From: a virus
DNA: 23,895 nucleotides
Direction: 5' to 3' (one strand)
Virus record (IMG/VR): IMGVR_UViG_3300010300_000106
Span: 1 to 23,895 of that record
Shown here in pieces: positions 4,129 through 23,844 of this stretch. Below the pieces are notes generated by a model, which saw only the letters and a program-made list of their open reading frames with translations, did no database searches and was not told where the DNA came from. Each line of letters begins with the position of its first letter. Position 1 is the stretch's first letter. Position numbers and translations under genes: made by a program.

Positions 4129-4136
4129 TATAAATA
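4129..4136 (-). promoter_or_regulatory. ATATTTATA box 13 bases upstream of the DHH gene
   Basis: On the minus strand the sequence reads CATATTTATAAC and TATTTATA ends 13 bases before the ATG at 4115. The same spacing is found before the genes at 8089 and 21001. Confidence 0.45.
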
Positions 4137-8067: not shown

Positions 8068-8075
8068 TATTTATA
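8068..8075 (+). promoter_or_regulatory. ATATTTATA box 13 bases upstream of the endolysin gene
   Basis: CATATTTATAAT precedes the endolysin gene and TATTTATA ends 13 bases before its ATG at 8089. Sequence and spacing match the box before the DHH gene on the other strand. No -33 element is visible. Confidence 0.45.
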
Positions 8076-8088
8076 ATAAAACTTAAAA

Positions 8089-9609
8089 ATGTCTAGAAAA
8101 AATTTTATAACAGATTTTCAGAGATTTAGTAATCATCAAAGTATAAGTAGAAGATATGTTTTGAAAGAAAATGTTAATTTACCAGGTGTTGAGTATTATG
8201 CAGATAGATTAACTTCTGACAAAAAATACGATAAAAGGGATATGAATAAGGTCGATAAAATTATTGTCCATCATACCGCTGGTCCCAAATCTCAATCTAT
8301 TGAAAGAGTTCACAATTACCATAAAGGAAAGGGATGGCCTAGAGTCGCTTACCACTTTTGGATTGATGAAGATGGTAGAATATTCCAACTAAATGACGTT
8401 GATACAAAAACTTTCCACGCTGGTAAATCGAACAGTAGTTCTATAGGAATTGTTTTACCTGGTTATTTTCATCCACCTAAAAATCACGTACCTTCACAAG
8501 CACAATTAGATAGTTTATATAACTTAGTTAATCAACTTGAGAGTAAGTATGGTTCAAAAAATGTTGTTGGTCATAGAGATGTTTCATCTACTTCATGTCC
8601 AGGAGATAATTTATACCCTTATGTTGAAATGATTAACCGAGGACAAAAACCTGTATTGGGTGATGTAGAATTAGAAAATACTGGTGACTCAGAAGAAAAA
8701 TTAGTTACTTATTATAGTGATGAATCAAAAAGTGATGTAAGTGACACACCTTTATTTGTGACTTATATGGGTAAAGAATACGAAAGACCCTCTCCTTCTG
8801 AATTTGTTGAAGATGATGTCATACTATTTGATGGGATGCCTCAAGGTAGAATGGATAGAAAAAATGAAGTCATGGAAATCCAACAGCTTCTCATTGATAG
8901 AAACTATAAACTACCAAATTTCGGTGTGGATGGTAAATTTGGACCAGAGACTTTAGCTGCTGTCAACGCATTTCAAACAGACCATGGTCTAACAGTTAAA
9001 GGTGTTGTTGACGAAGAAATGATGAATGAACTCGAGGTAGAAACGAATATCAATCAAAATCCTCAAGATAATGACCCACAAACCGTTCAAAGATATCAAC
9101 TTCAACCATGGGAACAACCTGTGGTTCAAGCTATTAAAGACGCAGCAGAGGAATATGGTATCGATGTTAAAGACGCTATGGTTATCGCTGAAGTAGAGAG
9201 TTCGGGTAATCCTAATGTGAAAAATGCGGGGGGATGTATAGGTTTATACCAATTTTGTCCGAGATGGATTAAAGGTTATGGTTTGAATTCCCAATCAGCA
9301 TTGGACCCATATCAAAACTCACTTGCGTTCGCAAAATCAATTAGAAAAAGAATAGATAATTTTAAATCCAAATATGGTAGAGAACCCGAACTACACGAAA
9401 CCTATATAATGTGGAATCAAGGTGAGAGTGGTGCTAATCAAATATTTGATGCTGTTTCAGAAGGTACTGGTGTCCCAAGACGTATAAGAAGAAATATGAG
9501 AGCACAAGGGAGTATGTTTTCCGATGACCCAGTAGAATTTGTGGAAGCTATGAAAAAATTTGTTCAGAACAAACAATCCCAATTTGAAAGTAGGGGTATT
9601 AAGATATAA
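8089..9609 (+). CDS. Modular endolysin: amidase_2, peptidoglycan-binding and lytic transglycosylase-like domains
   Basis: This 506-residue protein has three parts. Residues ~50-185 are an N-acetylmuramoyl-L-alanine amidase (amidase_2/PGRP type): IIVHHTAG (H61/H62), TFHAG (H110) and GHRDVSSTSCPG (H162, C170) give the zinc ligands. Residues ~256-315 are a PG_binding_1 domain (EIQQLLIDRNYKL, FGVDGKFGPETLAAVNAFQ). Residues ~340-460 resemble an SLT lytic transglycosylase/lysozyme: AEVESSGNP with the likely catalytic Glu370, GLYQF and YIMWNQGESGANQIF. Two enzymes cutting different peptidoglycan bonds are thus joined. No signal peptide is seen, so release would need the holin, unless the protein is a virion-borne wall hydrolase. 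It is followed closely by a mini HExxH gene and an M23 peptidase. Confidence 0.88.
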   Translation: MSRKNFITDFQRFSNHQSISRRYVLKENVNLPGVEYYADRLTSDKKYDKRDMNKVDKIIVHHTAGPKSQSIERVHNYHKGKGWPRVAYHFWIDEDGRIFQLNDVDTKTFHAGKSNSSSIGIVLPGYFHPPKNHVPSQAQLDSLYNLVNQLESKYGSKNVVGHRDVSSTSCPGDNLYPYVEMINRGQKPVLGDVELENTGDSEEKLVTYYSDESKSDVSDTPLFVTYMGKEYERPSPSEFVEDDVILFDGMPQGRMDRKNEVMEIQQLLIDRNYKLPNFGVDGKFGPETLAAVNAFQTDHGLTVKGVVDEEMMNELEVETNINQNPQDNDPQTVQRYQLQPWEQPVVQAIKDAAEEYGIDVKDAMVIAEVESSGNPNVKNAGGCIGLYQFCPRWIKGYGLNSQSALDPYQNSLAFAKSIRKRIDNFKSKYGREPELHETYIMWNQGESGANQIFDAVSEGTGVPRRIRRNMRAQGSMFSDDPVEFVEAMKKFVQNKQSQFESRGIKI

Positions 9610-15436: not shown

Positions 15437-15818
15437 GACCGATACGTGTTTGACATACGCGTTGAAGAGATTGGGTCTCGAACCAACTTATTGTGACCAC
15501 AATTCAATTCACGAATATTTCACACAACTTCCATTTCCCAAAAAGGAGGTAGAGTTAGAACCTGGTACAATTTTTTTATGGGATAAGGACATGGAATGGA
15601 CATGGTTACCGTGGAAAATAAACAAGTCTGGTAAAATAGAATGGTCAAATGTTCAAGTAGGATATCACTATGGATTATATGAAGGTGATGGTTTATTTTC
15701 TGATTGTACAAGATTAGTTAATACACCACATCCTACTATTAGAATGAGAAAATTAAATGAAGTTAAGAAAAGACCAGATTGGATATTGATATTTCAAGAA
15801 CCAAACATATACATATAA
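15408..15818 (+). CDS. Possible NlpC/P60- or CHAP-like cysteine hydrolase
   Basis: I chose the ATG at 15408; an in-frame ATG at 15390 would add six residues. The 136-residue protein has a helix with an N-terminal cysteine (TDTCLTYALKRLG, C14), a core strand after ELEPGTIFLWD, and YHYGLYEGDGLFSD with His87. This matches the Cys-helix, strand, His-strand order of NlpC/P60 and CHAP peptidoglycan hydrolases (HxGIYxGxG). The third polar residue is not clear. A wall peptidase role is therefore tentative. The stop overlaps the start of the Mom-like gene (TAATG). Confidence 0.5.
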   Translation: MQLHQVKLTKTDTCLTYALKRLGLEPTYCDHNSIHEYFTQLPFPKKEVELEPGTIFLWDKDMEWTWLPWKINKSGKIEWSNVQVGYHYGLYEGDGLFSDCTRLVNTPHPTIRMRKLNEVKKRPDWILIFQEPNIYI

Positions 15819-16594
15819 TGAACCAATTTTTAATTTTCGACAATCAAACTGAACTCGAAAATGATTTGAAATCTTTCAGAGAACGTTCCGTCAAAGCAAA
15901 ATCTATTTTTGAAATTAGAGGGATACTTAAATCCACTGCGTTAAAATTTGTTTCTCAACACCATTATCTCGGTGATGCAAAGTTTTTCTCAAAGTTCTCT
16001 TTCGGATTATTTCATAAGTCATCAGATACACTTTGTGGTGTAACTACTTTCTCCAATCCACAAGGTGCTGTAACTATGAAAGGATGGTTTGGTTTGACCA
16101 ATCAAGACCAATCTGTTTTAGAACTTAGTAGACTTTGTGTATTACCATCACTTAATGGTACTAACGCGACATCATACCTTTTAGGTCAGAGTATAAGATT
16201 TTTAAAAAAAGAAAACATAAGAGCGGTTATAACCTTAGCTGATAACTCAAGACATAATGGTAGTATCTACCAAGTATGTAATTTCAAATATTATGGTTTG
16301 TCAAATCCAAAGAGTGATTTCTTTTCATATGATGGTGACGGTAAATTCACAAAAAACTTCAGAGGAAAAACAAGTCAACACGATGGTGTATGGTTACCTA
16401 GAACAAGAAAACATCGTTATGCGTACATTATAGACCCTTCATTGCAATGCAACTACACTGAACAACTAAATCCGAAGAAGAGTGACTTTGAGTCTTATAA
16501 TTGTATTTGTGAGGATGAAAAGGTTTTTGATAAAAGATTTGGTCAATATTACTCGTGTCCCAACTGTACTGGTCAGTTAGTTAAAATTCAATAG
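15818..16594 (+). CDS. Mom-like acyltransferase (candidate DNA base modification) with C-terminal zinc finger
   Basis: The ATG at 15818 overlaps the previous stop; an upstream in-frame reading is internal to that gene. The 258-residue protein carries the pattern of phage Mom-type GNAT-fold proteins: HHYLG (residues 48-52), FGLF (62-65), CGVTTF (73-78), LELSRLCVLP (101-110), a helix LLGQSIRFLK and the ADNSRHNGSIYQVCNFKYYG block (141-160). Mom of phage Mu changes adenines in DNA to N6-carbamoylmethyladenine and so blocks host restriction. The C-terminus has C-x-C (CIC) and C-x2-C (CPNC), probably one zinc site. An assigned modification cannot be read from sequence. It converges with a candidate nuclease gene, overlapping by 14 bases. 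Confidence 0.65.
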   Translation: MNQFLIFDNQTELENDLKSFRERSVKAKSIFEIRGILKSTALKFVSQHHYLGDAKFFSKFSFGLFHKSSDTLCGVTTFSNPQGAVTMKGWFGLTNQDQSVLELSRLCVLPSLNGTNATSYLLGQSIRFLKKENIRAVITLADNSRHNGSIYQVCNFKYYGLSNPKSDFFSYDGDGKFTKNFRGKTSQHDGVWLPRTRKHRYAYIIDPSLQCNYTEQLNPKKSDFESYNCICEDEKVFDKRFGQYYSCPNCTGQLVKIQ

Positions 16595-17294: not shown

Positions 17295-17314
17295 ATATTT
17301 ATGAATATAAATAT
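17295..17314. promoter_or_regulatory. Palindrome with two back-to-back ATATTTAT boxes
   Basis: ATATTTAT (17295-17302), GAAT, then ATAAATAT (17307-17314) is a perfect 8-base inverted repeat between the divergent starts at 17282 (-) and 17323 (+). Each arm reads as an ATATTTAT box pointing at its own gene: TATTTATG is 19 bases before 17323 and TATTTATA is 23 bases before 17282. Confidence 0.45.
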
Positions 17315-18704: not shown

Positions 18705-18717
18705 AAGTTTTTTTACT
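18700..18717. terminator. Weak hairpin between convergent genes
   Basis: AGTAAAA (18700-18706) pairs with TTTTACT (18711-18717) around GTTT. It sits between the convergent ends of the small membrane protein and the spanin candidate. The stem is AT-rich and lacks a clear T-tail, so a bidirectional terminator is only a possibility. Confidence 0.3.
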
Positions 18718-19387
18718 ATTTGTTGGTTATTTTATGATAATAACCAATCCCAACGTAAGGTCTCGCTTTAACCACACCTAATTCGTTTTCATATGGCCAT
18801 TGTAAACCTCCTTTAACACCAATCATAAATCGTTTTTTAGTTCTTAACATCAATCCCATATCAATAAAAGCCATATCAAAAGGTTCAAAAGTAACACCAG
18901 TGTTAAATCCTAAATACAACTCACGAGCATTGATATAATGTTTTTCTGTTATTGTGTTTGTAATCGTGGGGTAAATGATATCGTATTTAGATGAACGTCC
19001 TGCTATTTGATTTTGTGTAATAGTATCATAAACTATAAATGTGAAACTATCGGATTGTAATATTGTATCGATATAATAATATTTTGCAAAGTAGTCTTCT
19101 AGGATAGCTGCAGTATCAGTTGGTTCAATCTTATACTCAATTTTAGTCACCGTATCGTGAATATATTTCACAACCTCTCTTTCATAATATTGTGGCACAT
19201 AACTAACAGTCTCATTGGTGATAGTATCGTATGTTACAATTGATGTAGTATCTCGTATGATAGTAGGTTCTGTAGGTCCACCATTACCACTACCACACTG
19301 TTTGAATAACAATAATAGTATTACAACTATTAATAATGCAGTATTTAATATCTTAATTTTTTCGTATTTGTTTTTTGTTTCACTCAT
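18716..19387 (-). CDS. N-anchored envelope protein, spanin candidate
   Basis: This 223-residue minus-strand protein starts with a charged stretch (MSETKNKYEKIKI). One membrane helix follows (residues ~14-29, LNTALLIVVILLLLF), then KQCGSGNGG. The middle is Thr/Tyr/Asp-rich with repeated strand-like DTITxE elements, and the C-terminal ~60 residues (ELYLGFNTGVTFEPFD, PYVGIGYYHKI) have alternating hydrophobics and Gly as in outer-membrane-type strands. Such an inner-membrane anchor plus periplasmic part next to a holin fits an i-spanin or one-piece spanin of phages on Gram-negative hosts. The family is not one I can name. It is coupled to the small membrane gene upstream. Confidence 0.55.
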   Translation of the reverse strand: MSETKNKYEKIKILNTALLIVVILLLLFKQCGSGNGGPTEPTIIRDTTSIVTYDTITNETVSYVPQYYEREVVKYIHDTVTKIEYKIEPTDTAAILEDYFAKYYYIDTILQSDSFTFIVYDTITQNQIAGRSSKYDIIYPTITNTITEKHYINARELYLGFNTGVTFEPFDMAFIDMGLMLRTKKRFMIGVKGGLQWPYENELGVVKARPYVGIGYYHKITNK

Positions 19388-19544: not shown

Positions 19545-19576
19545 TATAACTAATACTTTTTATCTCATTTGAAATA

Positions 19577-19584
19577 TATTTATT
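19577..19584 (+). promoter_or_regulatory. TATTTATT box upstream of the tandem protein family
   Basis: ATATATTTATTTTTG contains a TATTTATT box 20 bases before the ATG at 19605, and an overlapping TATTTTTG (19581-19588) that fits TAnnTTTG. No convincing -33 box is seen. It could start the transcript of the family array. Confidence 0.35.
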
Positions 19585-19604: not shown

Positions 19605-20201
19605 ATGCAAAGCAGAAAAGAATTAGTTGAACTTATTTTATCACCACTAACTTCTAGACCGATAAAATTAGAGAATCATTTCGTAGTACAATTCCAACCC
19701 CAAAGAAAATATCAAATGGAAGGAGTAAGTACTAGAGCGACCTTATACTACGATGTTTATATTCAATTACACATCGATGTCTTAGATAAGTTTTTGGGTC
19801 CACACACTTTAGTTTTAGATGTGGAAACAGAAATTTTGGATATGCAACTAAAAAGTATAGATTGGGGTGTTGTGAATTATTCAGAATTTATTGGTCAAGA
19901 AATATTAGATGACGCTCTTCAAGATGCAATAAGAAATAATAATTTAAACTCTAAGTCATATTACCATATATCTACTTTTTATCCCCAACTTGCCCCAAAT
20001 ACACCACATCCTTTATTAATCACTTTGGTGGGACTAGAAACTCAAATTAGGGAAATGATTGATAATAAACTAAAAGTAATTAACAAATCACTTAAAAAAG
20101 ACTCTGAAGTTGATTCATATGTTTCAAATTTAATAGATGATGTTGGTAATATAGACACCACTAAATTTACTTTTTATAACAAATACAACTACGAATCATA
20201 A
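19605..20201 (+). CDS. Tandem family protein 1 (198 residues, unknown)
   Basis: I start at ATG 19605 (MQSRKELVELIL); a TTG at 19569 would place the start inside an A/T-rich leader. The protein is acidic, with an N-terminal helix, a long beta region (YYDVYIQLHIDVLDKFL, HTLVLDVETEILD) and a helical C-terminus (LKVINKSLKKDSEV). It contains a Pro-rich stretch (FYPQLAPNTPHPLLITLVG). Size and order of elements resemble the five following family members, but the C-terminal RLVN-type motif is missing or changed (TLVGLETQ), so it is the least certain member. Its stop overlaps the next ATG (TAATG). Confidence 0.6.
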   Translation: MQSRKELVELILSPLTSRPIKLENHFVVQFQPQRKYQMEGVSTRATLYYDVYIQLHIDVLDKFLGPHTLVLDVETEILDMQLKSIDWGVVNYSEFIGQEILDDALQDAIRNNNLNSKSYYHISTFYPQLAPNTPHPLLITLVGLETQIREMIDNKLKVINKSLKKDSEVDSYVSNLIDDVGNIDTTKFTFYNKYNYES

Positions 20202-20734
20202 TGGACTTTAAAAACATAGTAAAACATTCTGAATTAATGTCAAAACCACAATCGGTTAATGTAATTCGAAATAATCTGTTTCGTATACGACCTTTTTTTA
20301 CTGTCGATTACAAAATTAGATTACAAGTTTATGAGACAGATACGAGGAAATATATTCATCCCGTTGTCGATATATTGGATGTGGAGTTAAACACTTCTAA
20401 ATCTTTAGAAAATACACCAAAAAAAAATTTAGATTTTGAAAAGAAAAAAGGGGATGAACAATTTTTAATTAAACATGAAGTAGAACCTCAGTTTGAAGAT
20501 TTGATAGAGGTGTTAATGATTTTATCATCTGATATAATGCCAAAAAATAAGTACGAGTTGAACTACGTGTCTGATTATAGGATAGCTGATGGGTTGGAAA
20601 TGTCATTTACCCCATTCACTGAATACTTGACAGACGAAGCTAATTCACTTGCAAGATTGTATGGATTAGGGACTGACAATCCAAACTATTCTACATCATT
20701 AGGTTTCACACTTCCAGATTATTTTTACAAATAG
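20201..20734 (+). CDS. Tandem family protein 2 (177 residues, unknown)
   Basis: The protein has an N-terminal helix, beta strands (FFTVDYKIRLQVYETDTRK, PVVDILDVELN), a charged insertion and, near the C-terminus, DEANSLARLYGLG. The RLYGLG element parallels RLVNM, RLINL and RLVSL of the genes downstream. It starts in a TAATG overlap. No catalytic motif is visible and I do not recognise a named family. Confidence 0.6.
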   Translation: MDFKNIVKHSELMSKPQSVNVIRNNLFRIRPFFTVDYKIRLQVYETDTRKYIHPVVDILDVELNTSKSLENTPKKNLDFEKKKGDEQFLIKHEVEPQFEDLIEVLMILSSDIMPKNKYELNYVSDYRIADGLEMSFTPFTEYLTDEANSLARLYGLGTDNPNYSTSLGFTLPDYFYK

Positions 20735-20755
20735 AATATAGTCACCACAACTATT

Positions 20756-20763
20756 TATTTATA
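20756..20763 (+). promoter_or_regulatory. TATTTATA box upstream of the small membrane gene
   Basis: CTATTTATTTATATAG contains TATTTATA ten bases before the ATG at 20774, flanked by a 6-base inverted repeat AACTAT/ATAGTT. It belongs to the recurrent motif. Confidence 0.4.
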
Positions 20764-20773
20764 TAGTTAAAAT

Positions 20774-20977
20774 ATGGTGGAATTTATATATCATTTCTTT
20801 GGTTTCTGTGGTGAAACCCATATCTCCATACTTTATCTGTCTATTTTGTTCCTTTTACCTTTTCTTTTATCCTTAAATTTACTCAAACGAATTTTATTAT
20901 ACCCTATTAAACTTATTTACAAATTAATTAGAAAAAAAAGACCATCAGTTTGGGATATAGATGAAGAAGATTTTTAG
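20774..20977 (+). CDS. 67-residue membrane protein
   Basis: This 67-residue protein starts MVEFIYHFFGFCGETHISIL. It has one long hydrophobic stretch (residues ~17-40, ISILYLSILFLLPFLLSLNL), then basic residues (KRILLYPIKLIYKLIRKKRP) and an acidic end (DIDEEDF). Small phage proteins with an FGFCGExH element are, as far as I recall, frequent in large phages; their role is unknown. It interrupts the tandem family. Confidence 0.65.
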   Translation: MVEFIYHFFGFCGETHISILYLSILFLLPFLLSLNLLKRILLYPIKLIYKLIRKKRPSVWDIDEEDF

Positions 20978-20979
20978 TA

Positions 20980-20987
20980 TATTTATA
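20980..20987 (+). promoter_or_regulatory. ATATTTATA box 13 bases upstream of 21001
   Basis: TATATTTATATT places TATTTATA 13 bases before the ATG at 21001, the same spacing as before the DHH and endolysin genes. Confidence 0.45.
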
Positions 20988-21000
20988 TTAAAATAACTTT

Positions 21001-21528
21001 ATGGATAAGTTTACGTTGGTTGAGAATTATATTAGAAGAATAGTAAGAGAGCAAAAATTCAAGGAAGTCACTGTGGAAGATTATCTTAAAACAATTGATG
21101 TTCCAAAACTCTCAGATAGAGAAAAAAAGTCTTTAATACAGAGGATTAAGGAACTACAATACATCGTCAGAAGTAATGCCCGTTACCCAGATAAAACCGA
21201 CTTTGGTCCTACGATACAAAAGATTTTATCTGATTCTGAATATGATGATTTAATTTTGGGTGACCCATACGAAGATTTGGCTTTTTTAGAAGATAAATTA
21301 AAAGAGTTGAACAAAACAAAATCTAATTCAGATACAAGGGAAAAAGTTAAATCTGAACCTTTTGATAATATTGATTTTAGTACAACTAGACGTATGGATA
21401 AACCCTTAGAACGAAAAGGAAAAAGATATCAAACACAATACAAAGACAAAAAAAGTTTCATAAACCCTATATACTGGACAAGAAAACTCAAAGACGTTGT
21501 AGATGAGTTCGGTGATAGAGTACTTTAA
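21001..21528 (+). CDS. 175-residue helical protein with phage leader-like N-terminus
   Basis: The protein starts MDKFTLVENYIRRIVREQKF, an amphipathic helix like the start segments of several marine-phage proteins. It then has a basic helical body (LSDREKKSLIQRIKELQYIV), an acidic stretch (SDSEYDDLILGDPYEDLAFL) and a basic C-terminus (RKGKRYQTQYKDKKSF). It does not look like the tandem family around it. A structural or virion role is possible but not shown. Confidence 0.6.
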   Translation: MDKFTLVENYIRRIVREQKFKEVTVEDYLKTIDVPKLSDREKKSLIQRIKELQYIVRSNARYPDKTDFGPTIQKILSDSEYDDLILGDPYEDLAFLEDKLKELNKTKSNSDTREKVKSEPFDNIDFSTTRRMDKPLERKGKRYQTQYKDKKSFINPIYWTRKLKDVVDEFGDRVL

Positions 21529-21540
21529 ATAATACGAACT

Positions 21541-22116
21541 ATGACTTTGGATAAACTAATCACTTATTTTAATTCTATATCAAAACCTAAAAAAGGTAAG
21601 ATTGTGAAACACAAATATGGTGAAGAGATTTTTATTAATTTTTCAGATGAATCTGGTGATTATAAAACTAAGTTACACTCATCCTATGTCCCTATAGTAT
21701 TTGATTTTACCTATCAATTGGAACTTGTCAAAGAAGAAGAACCAATGTTTCACGAATTGTCACTGGTTGTTAATATAAGTGATATTAAAATTGATACCAA
21801 AACATCAGTTAAACTTCTTATTGAAAATATTAAATTTGGTCATGCACGTAACTATGGATTTGATGAAGATACCATAAATAGATATTTGATTCAAAATAAA
21901 GAAATAATCTTTCAGTATTTAGAATATCTATCAAAAGTTATTGCTAAAAAAATTAAGATAAATATTCTTAGAAATGAAGTATTTGACCCTAACGAATACC
22001 ATGAACCAGGTGGTCAAATCGAATTTAAGAGATTGGTGGAAAAAGAATTTAATGAATTTGGTAGATTAGTTAACATGGAATTTCAAGATTTATTTGGTGT
22101 AAAAACAAAATTTTGA
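21541..22116 (+). CDS. Tandem family protein 3 (191 residues, unknown)
   Basis: The order is an N-terminal helix (LDKLITYFNSI), beta strands (SYVPIVFDFTYQLELV, FHELSLVVNISDIKI), a variable helical region (FQYLEYLSKVIAKKIKI), then a C-terminal GRLVNMEFQ element. The GRLVNMEFQ segment is shared with protein 5 at 22702, and 21 DNA bases are identical there (22066-22086 and 23251-23271). I cannot name a family. Confidence 0.6.
   Translation: MTLDKLITYFNSISKPKKGKIVKHKYGEEIFINFSDESGDYKTKLHSSYVPIVFDFTYQLELVKEEEPMFHELSLVVNISDIKIDTKTSVKLLIENIKFGHARNYGFDEDTINRYLIQNKEIIFQYLEYLSKVIAKKIKINILRNEVFDPNEYHEPGGQIEFKRLVEKEFNEFGRLVNMEFQDLFGVKTKF
22066..22086 (+). repeat. 21-base exact direct repeat, copy 1
   Basis: The 21 bases here are identical to 23251-23271 and in the same reading phase, encoding LVNMEFQ (after R). 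The flanking bases differ on both sides. It marks relatedness or gene conversion between two tandem family genes. Confidence 0.8.
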
Positions 22117-22118
22117 TT

Positions 22119-22718
22119 ATGGCTAATATGTTCAACAATATTCATTTGTTAAACACCAAAGTTGATACAAATAGAAGTTTTATAACTTCAGTCGAAGGTA
22201 TATTTTATTTCGATGCAATCAGAAATGAAATAAGTGAGGTTGTTGTATCTATAGATGTTTTTTTTAAAGTTGACTTGGAATTCTTTTTTGATTTATATAA
22301 ATACGATAACTTCTACGAGATACATGTTATGATAGTCCTGCGTGATATTAAACCCTTAACTGATTTAACATTACAAAGTTATCAAAAAAAGTTAAAAGAA
22401 TATTCTAATAGTGGACTCCACTTTCCAGATGAATTGGAAGATGAAAGAGTCGAAAAGATTTTGGACTATCAGAATAAAATAGTGGAAAGTTACAAATCAT
22501 ATGATTATGGTAGTTATTGGTTTAGAAATTTCAATATTTATCCCAAAAAAAATAGTAAGTTTGATTTCAACAGTTACGTACCACAAATAATAACACCAAT
22601 AATTAGATTAATTAATTTAGACTCAAAAAATACTAGAAAGTCAGTAATCAATTATATGTCCCCCAATCATTTTAACCAATATAAAACTAAATTTTTGAAT
22701 TATGTCAAACATATCTGA
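22119..22718 (+). CDS. Tandem family protein 4 (199 residues, unknown)
   Basis: I start at ATG 22119 (MANMFNNIHLLNTKV), two bases after the previous stop; a TTG six bases earlier is less likely. Strands (VVVSIDVFFKVDLEFFFDL, YEIHVMIVLRDIKPLTDLTL) are followed by a Glu/Lys helix and a Tyr-rich region. The C-terminal IIRLINLDSKN corresponds to RLVNM. It overlaps the next gene by 17 bases. Function unknown. Confidence 0.6.
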   Translation: MANMFNNIHLLNTKVDTNRSFITSVEGIFYFDAIRNEISEVVVSIDVFFKVDLEFFFDLYKYDNFYEIHVMIVLRDIKPLTDLTLQSYQKKLKEYSNSGLHFPDELEDERVEKILDYQNKIVESYKSYDYGSYWFRNFNIYPKKNSKFDFNSYVPQIITPIIRLINLDSKNTRKSVINYMSPNHFNQYKTKFLNYVKHI

Positions 22719-23304
22719 TAGATTAGACTTATTGAACAAACTTATGAAGGATGAAGTTATTGACATAGCTTTAGAACAAAAGTGGGTTTATTTAAGGAGG
22801 GAACTAAAAGATTTATTTCCGTATATTTATTCACCAATCTTTTTTAAGAGTAATGTCAATACAAATATCTCCACAACAAACGGTGAGATTTTCAAACTAA
22901 CGATTAATCTTAATGATTTTGAAGTTTTGATTGACCCAACATTAGAATGTTTAGAAAGTATAGTTAATAAGGATTTGGAAAAAGAATATGGACTTCCACT
23001 ACACAACTACATTCAAAAAAGTATTGGTGGTACTACATTTAGTGTTGACCCAAAGTTTATCACTACATTCGAAAAAGATATAGAAAGAATATTATTTGGT
23101 ATTAGAAGATTTCCAAACATACCAAACTATTTCCTAGTTATGGGAGATACGACACATGAGGATTTCTGTAAAGAATATTATGAGGATTTGGGGATTTCAT
23201 TACCGAATATTGGTCCCTATTTTTTTGATAAGTTAAATCGATATGCTCGTTTAGTTAACATGGAATTTCAATATTCTGATATATTAATACATTTTAAATT
23301 TTGA
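22702..23304 (+). CDS. Tandem family protein 5 (200 residues, unknown)
   Basis: The start MSNISDRLDLLNKLMKDEV resembles MEGRQQRIELFNRL of protein 6 and MFNNIHLLN of protein 4. Strands (EIFKLTINLNDFEVLIDPTL) match the position of MIVLRDIKPLTDLTL in protein 4. The C-terminal YARLVNMEFQ is shared with protein 3. No catalytic motif is seen. Confidence 0.6.
   Translation: MSNISDRLDLLNKLMKDEVIDIALEQKWVYLRRELKDLFPYIYSPIFFKSNVNTNISTTNGEIFKLTINLNDFEVLIDPTLECLESIVNKDLEKEYGLPLHNYIQKSIGGTTFSVDPKFITTFEKDIERILFGIRRFPNIPNYFLVMGDTTHEDFCKEYYEDLGISLPNIGPYFFDKLNRYARLVNMEFQYSDILIHFKF
23251..23271 (+). repeat. 21-base exact direct repeat, copy 2
   Basis: Second copy of the 21-base identity with 22066-22086, in the same reading phase in tandem family protein 5. 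Confidence 0.8.
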
Positions 23305-23310
23305 TGAATT

Positions 23311-23844
23311 ATGGAAGGTAGACAACAAAGAATAGAATTATTCAATAGGTTAAGTGAATTCCAAAAATTCACGGTCTTGTACACACATTCTTTTTATTTA
23401 GACCGAGAAGAGTTTTTTGATATAAATCCTGGAGGAGAGATAAAGATTAATGTTTTTGTTAATATAGAATGTAAACCTCATGTGGTAAATTATAAAAATA
23501 AAGGTGAGTATGTCCTCTTTTATTTAGTTAAAACAGAAATATTATTGGATGAGACAATTAATTGCTTTAATAAACGTTTAGAACACAAAGGTTACCAACC
23601 AATAAACATTACAGATGAAAATGGTTTTATTGATGTCGTGACCGCTAGTTTCAAAGAATTTGATAGGGGATTATTTATTCAAGGAAAAGTCGTAGATGAA
23701 AGTCAAAGTAATTTTTCTGAATGTGACATTGTTTTAACAGATGACGATTTCGTGGAGACAATCGAGGAAATCGTAAATAAAACTTCTCGATTAGTTTCAT
23801 TAGGACCTAACGACATCGATGATACTAGAGTTATGTATGTATAA
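23311..23844 (+). CDS. Tandem family protein 6 (177 residues, unknown)
   Basis: The order of elements repeats: helix RIELFNRLSEFQ, strands (GGEIKINVFVNIECKPHVV, YVLFYLVKTEILLDETINC), a variable region and a C-terminal KTSRLVSLGPND element. The family role is not known. The start follows the previous stop by six bases, and the stop overlaps the next ATG (TAATG). Confidence 0.6.
   Translation: MEGRQQRIELFNRLSEFQKFTVLYTHSFYLDREEFFDINPGGEIKINVFVNIECKPHVVNYKNKGEYVLFYLVKTEILLDETINCFNKRLEHKGYQPINITDENGFIDVVTASFKEFDRGLFIQGKVVDESQSNFSECDIVLTDDDFVETIEEIVNKTSRLVSLGPNDIDDTRVMYV

Follow-up and report, generated by a model that had tools for sequence, protein, structure and literature searches.

Evidence for a diverged tandem paralogue family behind a late-type sequence element in a phage DNA fragment

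Introduction

What does a phage gain from a row of small genes whose products resemble one another faintly and match no described family? The question is raised by IMG/VR virus record IMGVR_UViG_3300010300_000106, a linear fragment of 23,895 b that we analysed as the complete record and refer to as the window. Between positions 19605 and 23844 it carries six open reading frames (ORFs), all on the + strand and named here by their first position, which an earlier note had described as an array of six diverged tandem proteins, perhaps an expanding family of receptor-binding, anti-defence or virion decoration proteins. Our analysis supports a common origin for five of the six, and the best clue to their function is the upstream octamer TATTTATA, which suggests that the copies are probably made late, together with the virion genes.

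Results

Layout of the run

The peptides quoted in the earlier note are present on the + strand for all six proteins, and the ORFs encode, in order, 198, 177, 191, 199, 200 and 177 aa, so that the size range given there (177-199 residues) has to be widened by one residue. At the local GC content of 28%, a frame would stay open for 177 codons by chance with a probability of only ~7e-8, and we therefore treat the six ORFs as genes. The run as first described omitted two unrelated genes that separate the copies, at 20774-20977 and 21001-21528. Its genes are as follows, with the basis of each assignment in brackets (HMM, hidden Markov model).

19605-20201, +, first protein of the run, 198 aa, family membership unproven (ORF)
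20201-20734, +, family member 1, 177 aa (rank 1 with an HMM of the other four; both blocks)
20774-20977, +, 67-aa membrane-type protein, a non-member that interrupts the run (ORF; hydrophobic segment read from the sequence)
21001-21528, +, unrelated 175-aa basic protein, isoelectric point 9.0, at the head of the operon that contains family members 2 to 5 (missed by the family HMM)
21541-22116, +, family member 2, 191 aa, C-terminal KTKF (both blocks; HMM rank 4; AlphaFold2 model)
22119-22718, +, family member 3, 199 aa (pair scores with 23311 and 20201; HMM rank 1)
22702-23304, +, family member 4, 200 aa (HMM rank 1; both blocks)
23311-23844, +, family member 5, 177 aa (pair with 22119; both blocks; AlphaFold2 model)

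Four copies are thus consecutive (21541-23844), with the fifth at 20201. The operon, in the order 21001-21541-22119-22702-23311, is compact and has no large gaps up to 23844; the next ORF, from 23845 onward, has only 17 codons inside the window. Across 22690-22718 the 22119 frame reads beyond the KTKF at which 21541 stops, continuing through an extended T tract into an overlap with 22702. This is either a real extension or else an indel or assembly error.

Two collinear blocks support homology of five copies

Homology was assessed by finding the best common ungapped block among the five proteins and rerunning the search on shuffled sequences. Because shuffling destroys helix periodicity, we added a control in which each of 400 sets comprised five unrelated real proteins, matched in length, from related phages. 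Block B, a 20-residue C-terminal helix block ending in RL(V/I/Y)(N/S/G)(L/M) (e.g. DFVETIEEIVNKTSRLVSLG), reached a sum-of-pairs score of 236, compared with 119±13 (maximum 149) for shuffles and a maximum of 156 for the real-protein sets. With Block B removed, a 26-aa Block A comprising the long strand and the following helix (e.g. EYVLFYLVKTEILLDETINCFNKRLE) scored 159; here the shuffles gave 78±13 (maximum 108) and the real-protein sets a maximum of 143. The two blocks are collinear and start 80-105 residues apart in all five members. From 20201 to 23311 the RL element reads RLYGL, RLVNM, RLINL, RLVNM and RLVSL, in agreement with the earlier observation that it occurs in the last five proteins and is missing from 19605. 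The block search placed the blocks as follows.

20354-20431, +, Block A of 20201
20612-20671, +, Block B (RLYGL) of 20201
21757-21834, +, Block A of 21541
22021-22080, +, Block B (RLVNM) of 21541, overlapping a 43-nt DNA repeat
22320-22397, +, Block A of 22119
22563-22622, +, Block B (RLINL) of 22119
22891-22968, +, Block A of 22702
23206-23265, +, Block B (RLVNM) of 22702
23506-23583, +, Block A of 23311
23746-23805, +, Block B (RLVSL) of 23311

Pairwise alignment rises above shuffles for 22119-23311 (z 4.5 local, 6.3 global), 20201-22119 (z 4.4) and 22702-23311 (z 3.2), and the scores of most other pairs lack significance. When each member was left out in turn and sought with an HMM of the remaining four among ~3,650 proteins, 20201 (E 1.4e-5), 22119 and 22702 (E 0.005) were retrieved at rank 1 and 21541 at rank 4; 23311 came only at rank 65, yet it has the strongest pairwise link. 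The intervening 21001 protein is missed by the family HMM, and putting it in the place of a member lowers the block score. Taken together, these comparisons support the view that 20201, 21541, 22119, 22702 and 23311 are paralogues of one diverged tandem family.

The copies are ~18-24% identical to 23311 in the alignment and share no DNA similarity except for a 43-nt direct repeat (22048-22090 and 23233-23275, 81% identity), which lies over the RLVNMEFQ helix of 21541 and 22702 and contains an exact stretch of 18 nt and more. This repeat points to constraint or local gene conversion at the C-terminal helix. Given this degree of divergence, and with no second carrier phage found, the description of the family as expanding is not borne out.

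The proposal of six related proteins is supported for five and not for the first. An HMM of the other five does not retrieve 19605 (rank 302, E 33, in the same ~3,650 proteins), and its fit to the C-terminal block is equalled by 38 of 200 random proteins. In place of the RL motif the protein has a degenerate KVINK, and its strands together with KVINK are a suggestive hint of membership, nothing firmer. Two starts were considered, the TTG at 19569 and the ATG at 19605; the ATG was chosen in view of the TATTTAT element at 19577 (TATTTATT), 28 nt upstream of it. A PADLOC assignment of 19605 to CARF-HEPN (E 4e-4, 17.9 bits) was rejected, being partial and lacking the RxxxxH motif, with the other copies silent.

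A late-type element precedes the operon

The octamer TATTTATA was counted in 854 kb of related phage DNA with 657 ORFs of at least 120 aa. It starts 10-29 nt upstream of 79 of these ORFs, compared with 17 for its reverse complement, and from 50 nt upstream outward it occurs only ~1-2 times per 10-nt bin. The genes behind it include, by PHROGs assignment, those for tail tube, tail sheath, a gp25-like baseplate wedge and a head-tail adaptor, and it is because of the genes it precedes that we call the element late-type. The late promoters of T4 have TATAAATA; on the opposite strand this octamer reads TATTTATA. No publication pairing TATTTATA with 'late promoter' was found in the literature searched. 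We consider the octamer a likely late promoter in this phage group, and two copies fall within the run.

20756-20763, +, TATTTATA element, 18 nt before the start of 20774
20980-20987, +, TATTTATA element, predicted promoter of operon 21001-23844, 21 nt before the start of 21001

Elsewhere in the window the octamer is found at 8068 (+) and, on the - strand, at 4129-4136 and 17306-17313; related loci that carry it are L287-L293, L258-L272 and L276-L286. The same window also holds holin, lysozyme and M23 genes, which indicate a late region. With respect to the roles proposed earlier, the element favours a virion-type (late) protein and disfavours early anti-defence. The octamer could also offer a simple means of dividing the uncharacterised genes of these phages into a likely late (virion-type) class and the rest, which would make many ORFan genes testable.

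Predicted structures of two copies

AlphaFold2 models were obtained for 23311 (four-row alignment; pLDDT 64.5, pTM 0.63) and 21541 (six-row alignment; pLDDT 65.0, pTM 0.61). The 23311 model consists of helix 2-14, strands 18-29, 43-60 and 66-77, helices 79-92 and 104-115, short strands and helix 147-161. That of 21541 has helix 3-13, strand 17-25, two extra strands, strands 50-67 and 70-84 and helix 86-105, followed by two helices, short strands, helix 162-176 and strand 187-190. Both models thus contain the N-terminal helix and long strand pair noted previously from the sequences, and their element order agrees: helix, strand, two long strands, helices, short strands and a C-terminal helix in which the RLVxx motif sits. 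The two models are of low confidence, were not superposed and came from alignments with shared rows; they are consistent with a common fold and do not prove it.

Fold searches with both models returned no Foldseek viral match at E<=0.001 and no PDB match at Z>=5. Weaker matches to SpoIIIAG/FliF ring-building proteins, BPI/JHBP (TULIP) proteins, SaPI2 Stl and chimallin (Z ~2-4) fall below a meaningful level and were not used. The copies read as compact soluble alpha/beta proteins with no evident signal peptide or membrane segment.

Searches for relatives

As in the earlier note, which recognised no family, we found no relative of the run proteins in Pfam, PHROGs, NCBIfam or the PDB, where sequence matches were at E 0.3 or worse. 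Neither tblastn at E<=1, for any of the six, nor blastn gave a match in 50,697 phage records, and four single-protein scans of 2.9 million viral contigs, made with run proteins other than 19605 and 20201, returned no relative. The codon pattern of RLVNMEFQ has one chance match in viral contigs and eight in genomes, none of them in an array-like protein. A profile search of 3 + 29 + 31 + 1 records gave a single match, in a huge-phage record (E 0.042) and with an internal stop.

No relative turned up in ~60 related phage records. Among related phages, phmmer, HMM and hhalign did not detect the family; the best hhalign probability against 730 families and ORFs was 2.2%. Weak matches in adjacent genes of the relatives G004, G001 and G031 were discarded as glycosyltransferase-, sigma-factor-, nuclease-like and other unrelated proteins. 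A recurring weak HMM match, G004:45974-46780, reads as deoxyribose-phosphate-aldolase-like and was dismissed; N-terminally tagged enzymes of this kind are embedded in the structural gene cluster of these phages, there and at G031:26690-27790 and G030:20705-21514. Rfam and transfer RNA (tRNA) scans of the window were empty. The sequence family is new, in that it has no match in the collections searched; tandem paralogues in large phages are already known.

Related phages and neighbouring genes

Relatives ~70% identical to the window's DHH-phosphoesterase gene occur in contigs of up to 246 kb. Gene order is common to much of window positions 1-15.4 kb and five relatives (G004, G010, G006, G007 and G001), and many of these genes are also present in G031 (298 kb). 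G004 carries a T4-like set that includes tail sheath, tube and baseplate genes. Beyond the common 15.4-kb block the relatives carry other genes, among them RecA-like, CAP-domain and leucine-rich repeat (LRR) proteins. Downstream of the block in G006 (L171:156-2855) are four tandem LRR paralogues with the same N-terminal tag. One relative encodes what we read as a gliding-motility-type C-terminal domain protein (L179:7054-7584), which suggests that the host of the phage belongs to the Bacteroidota.

Three genes upstream of the run also deserve mention. The holin (PF05105, 18040-18492) has at least 151 relatives in viral contigs, and the contexts of the best 80 are mostly unrelated to the window; it is a mobile lysis gene. 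A Mom-like protein (15779-16594; Pfam Mom 2.8e-26, PHROG 2.9e-32), with relatives elsewhere in G004, G001, G006 and G007, is a possible DNA-modification anti-restriction gene. The membrane-anchored 223-aa protein at 18716-19387 (-) has homologues in L183, L188, L200 and L251, which cluster with genes for a sigma factor and an amidase-like protein and are flipped relative to the 14527 gene.

A short N-terminal peptide with (L/I)xE or a similar sequence at its end is found on many proteins of this phage group (MNLVRRILRE, MSKRIRQIIRE, ...LNEQ, ...INEQ). Examples are the proteins at 8089, 9981, 11508, 16581 (-) and 21001 in the window and others in L169, L171, L183, L200 and further loci. The peptide resembles a T4-type prohead-protease propeptide or capsid-targeting tag, and in a crude count its excess over protein interiors is modest (0.15 vs 0.10 per counting window).

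Discussion

What the copies may do

We tentatively propose, with a probability of roughly 45%, that the run holds at least five diverged paralogues, from one large T4-like phage lineage, that are expressed late and act as virion or assembly proteins. On this proposal, in-place gene duplication would have produced the row of small soluble alpha/beta proteins, and each copy would be a subunit that binds either its related subunits or one common partner, be it within the particle (head, neck or tail) or while the particle is being assembled. The C-terminal helix with RL(V/I)N(L/M) may provide the contact common to all copies, with specificity residing in the variable middle. A bolder version, which we regard as a long shot, would make the five copies non-identical subunits of one hetero-oligomeric ring or layer, with its own paralogue at each position held through the common C-terminal RLVNL helix; the protein family would then be novel, and the fold perhaps so too.

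Several findings weigh against virion or assembly proteins. TATTTATA also precedes two helicase genes, so the class it marks is not purely structural, and 19605 and 20201 have just a 7/8 match to it. The two low-confidence models match no known virion fold. Relatives with the same 15 kb lack the family, which implies that its function is dispensable or met otherwise and is as compatible with an accessory role as with a structural one. The main alternative, possible if rather unlikely, is that the copies are non-virion proteins made late and directed at the host (takeover, counter-defence or lysis timing), having been duplicated and having diverged until each bound a different host target. Small, soluble, fast-evolving proteins without homologues would suit such a role, as would the accessory, hypervariable position, where relatives hold unrelated genes including the tandem LRR array. 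The late-type element before the operon speaks against it, however, and no PADLOC family was matched save for the weak partial CARF-HEPN match of 19605.

The late-type element would also fit receptor-binding or variable surface (decoration) proteins, and tandem divergence would suit surface variation. We nevertheless consider this role, one of those suggested earlier, improbable and see no specific evidence for it: the predicted fold is a compact soluble alpha/beta domain, and we saw no fibre-type repeats, adhesin or Ig domain, secretion signals or variable tips, no match to a tail-fibre or decoration family, and no recognised tail-fibre gene adjoining the run. It could also be argued that there is no single family and that similar-sized, AT-rich ORFan genes look alike by chance or composition, given that most pairwise scores lack significance, that 19605 is not retrieved and 23311 reaches only rank 65, and that the models are of low confidence. 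This we hold to be very improbable, as two collinear blocks beat all shuffles and all 400 real-protein sets, the neighbouring 21001 fails the same block test, and the predicted element order agrees in both models.

Comparison with known systems

The G006 LRR array resembles the run in consisting of tandem paralogues downstream of the common 15-kb block, but its members belong to the LRR family, are clearly alike in sequence and lie in the orientation opposite to the syntenic core. A precedent for late virion or assembly proteins is paralogue family B of the giant Salmonella phage SPN3US, whose 20 members (gp83, gps 138-154, 161 and 237), 17 of them consecutively numbered (gps 138-154), are all expected head proteins of unknown function (PMC5694885). 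A tblastn search at E<=1 gave no match between the run proteins and this family in the 50,697 phage records, among which we assume SPN3US to be present. The likeness lies in many diverged paralogues, encoded mostly by consecutive genes, in a large phage with T4-like head features; the difference is that presence in the particle was shown there by mass spectrometry, whereas a place in the virion is proposed here. Phage phiKZ has five inner-head paralogues, gp93, 94, 95, 162 and 163 (pfam12699; PMC5694885). These likewise form a paralogous virion family, with copy numbers that differ between giant phages, but the run proteins differ in having no Pfam match. If our proposal is correct, a large phage would here be equipping or building its particle with a private, tandemly duplicated family, as SPN3US and phiKZ do, and the case would lie in a T4-like group, probably of Bacteroidota, with a family that has no relatives in the collections searched.

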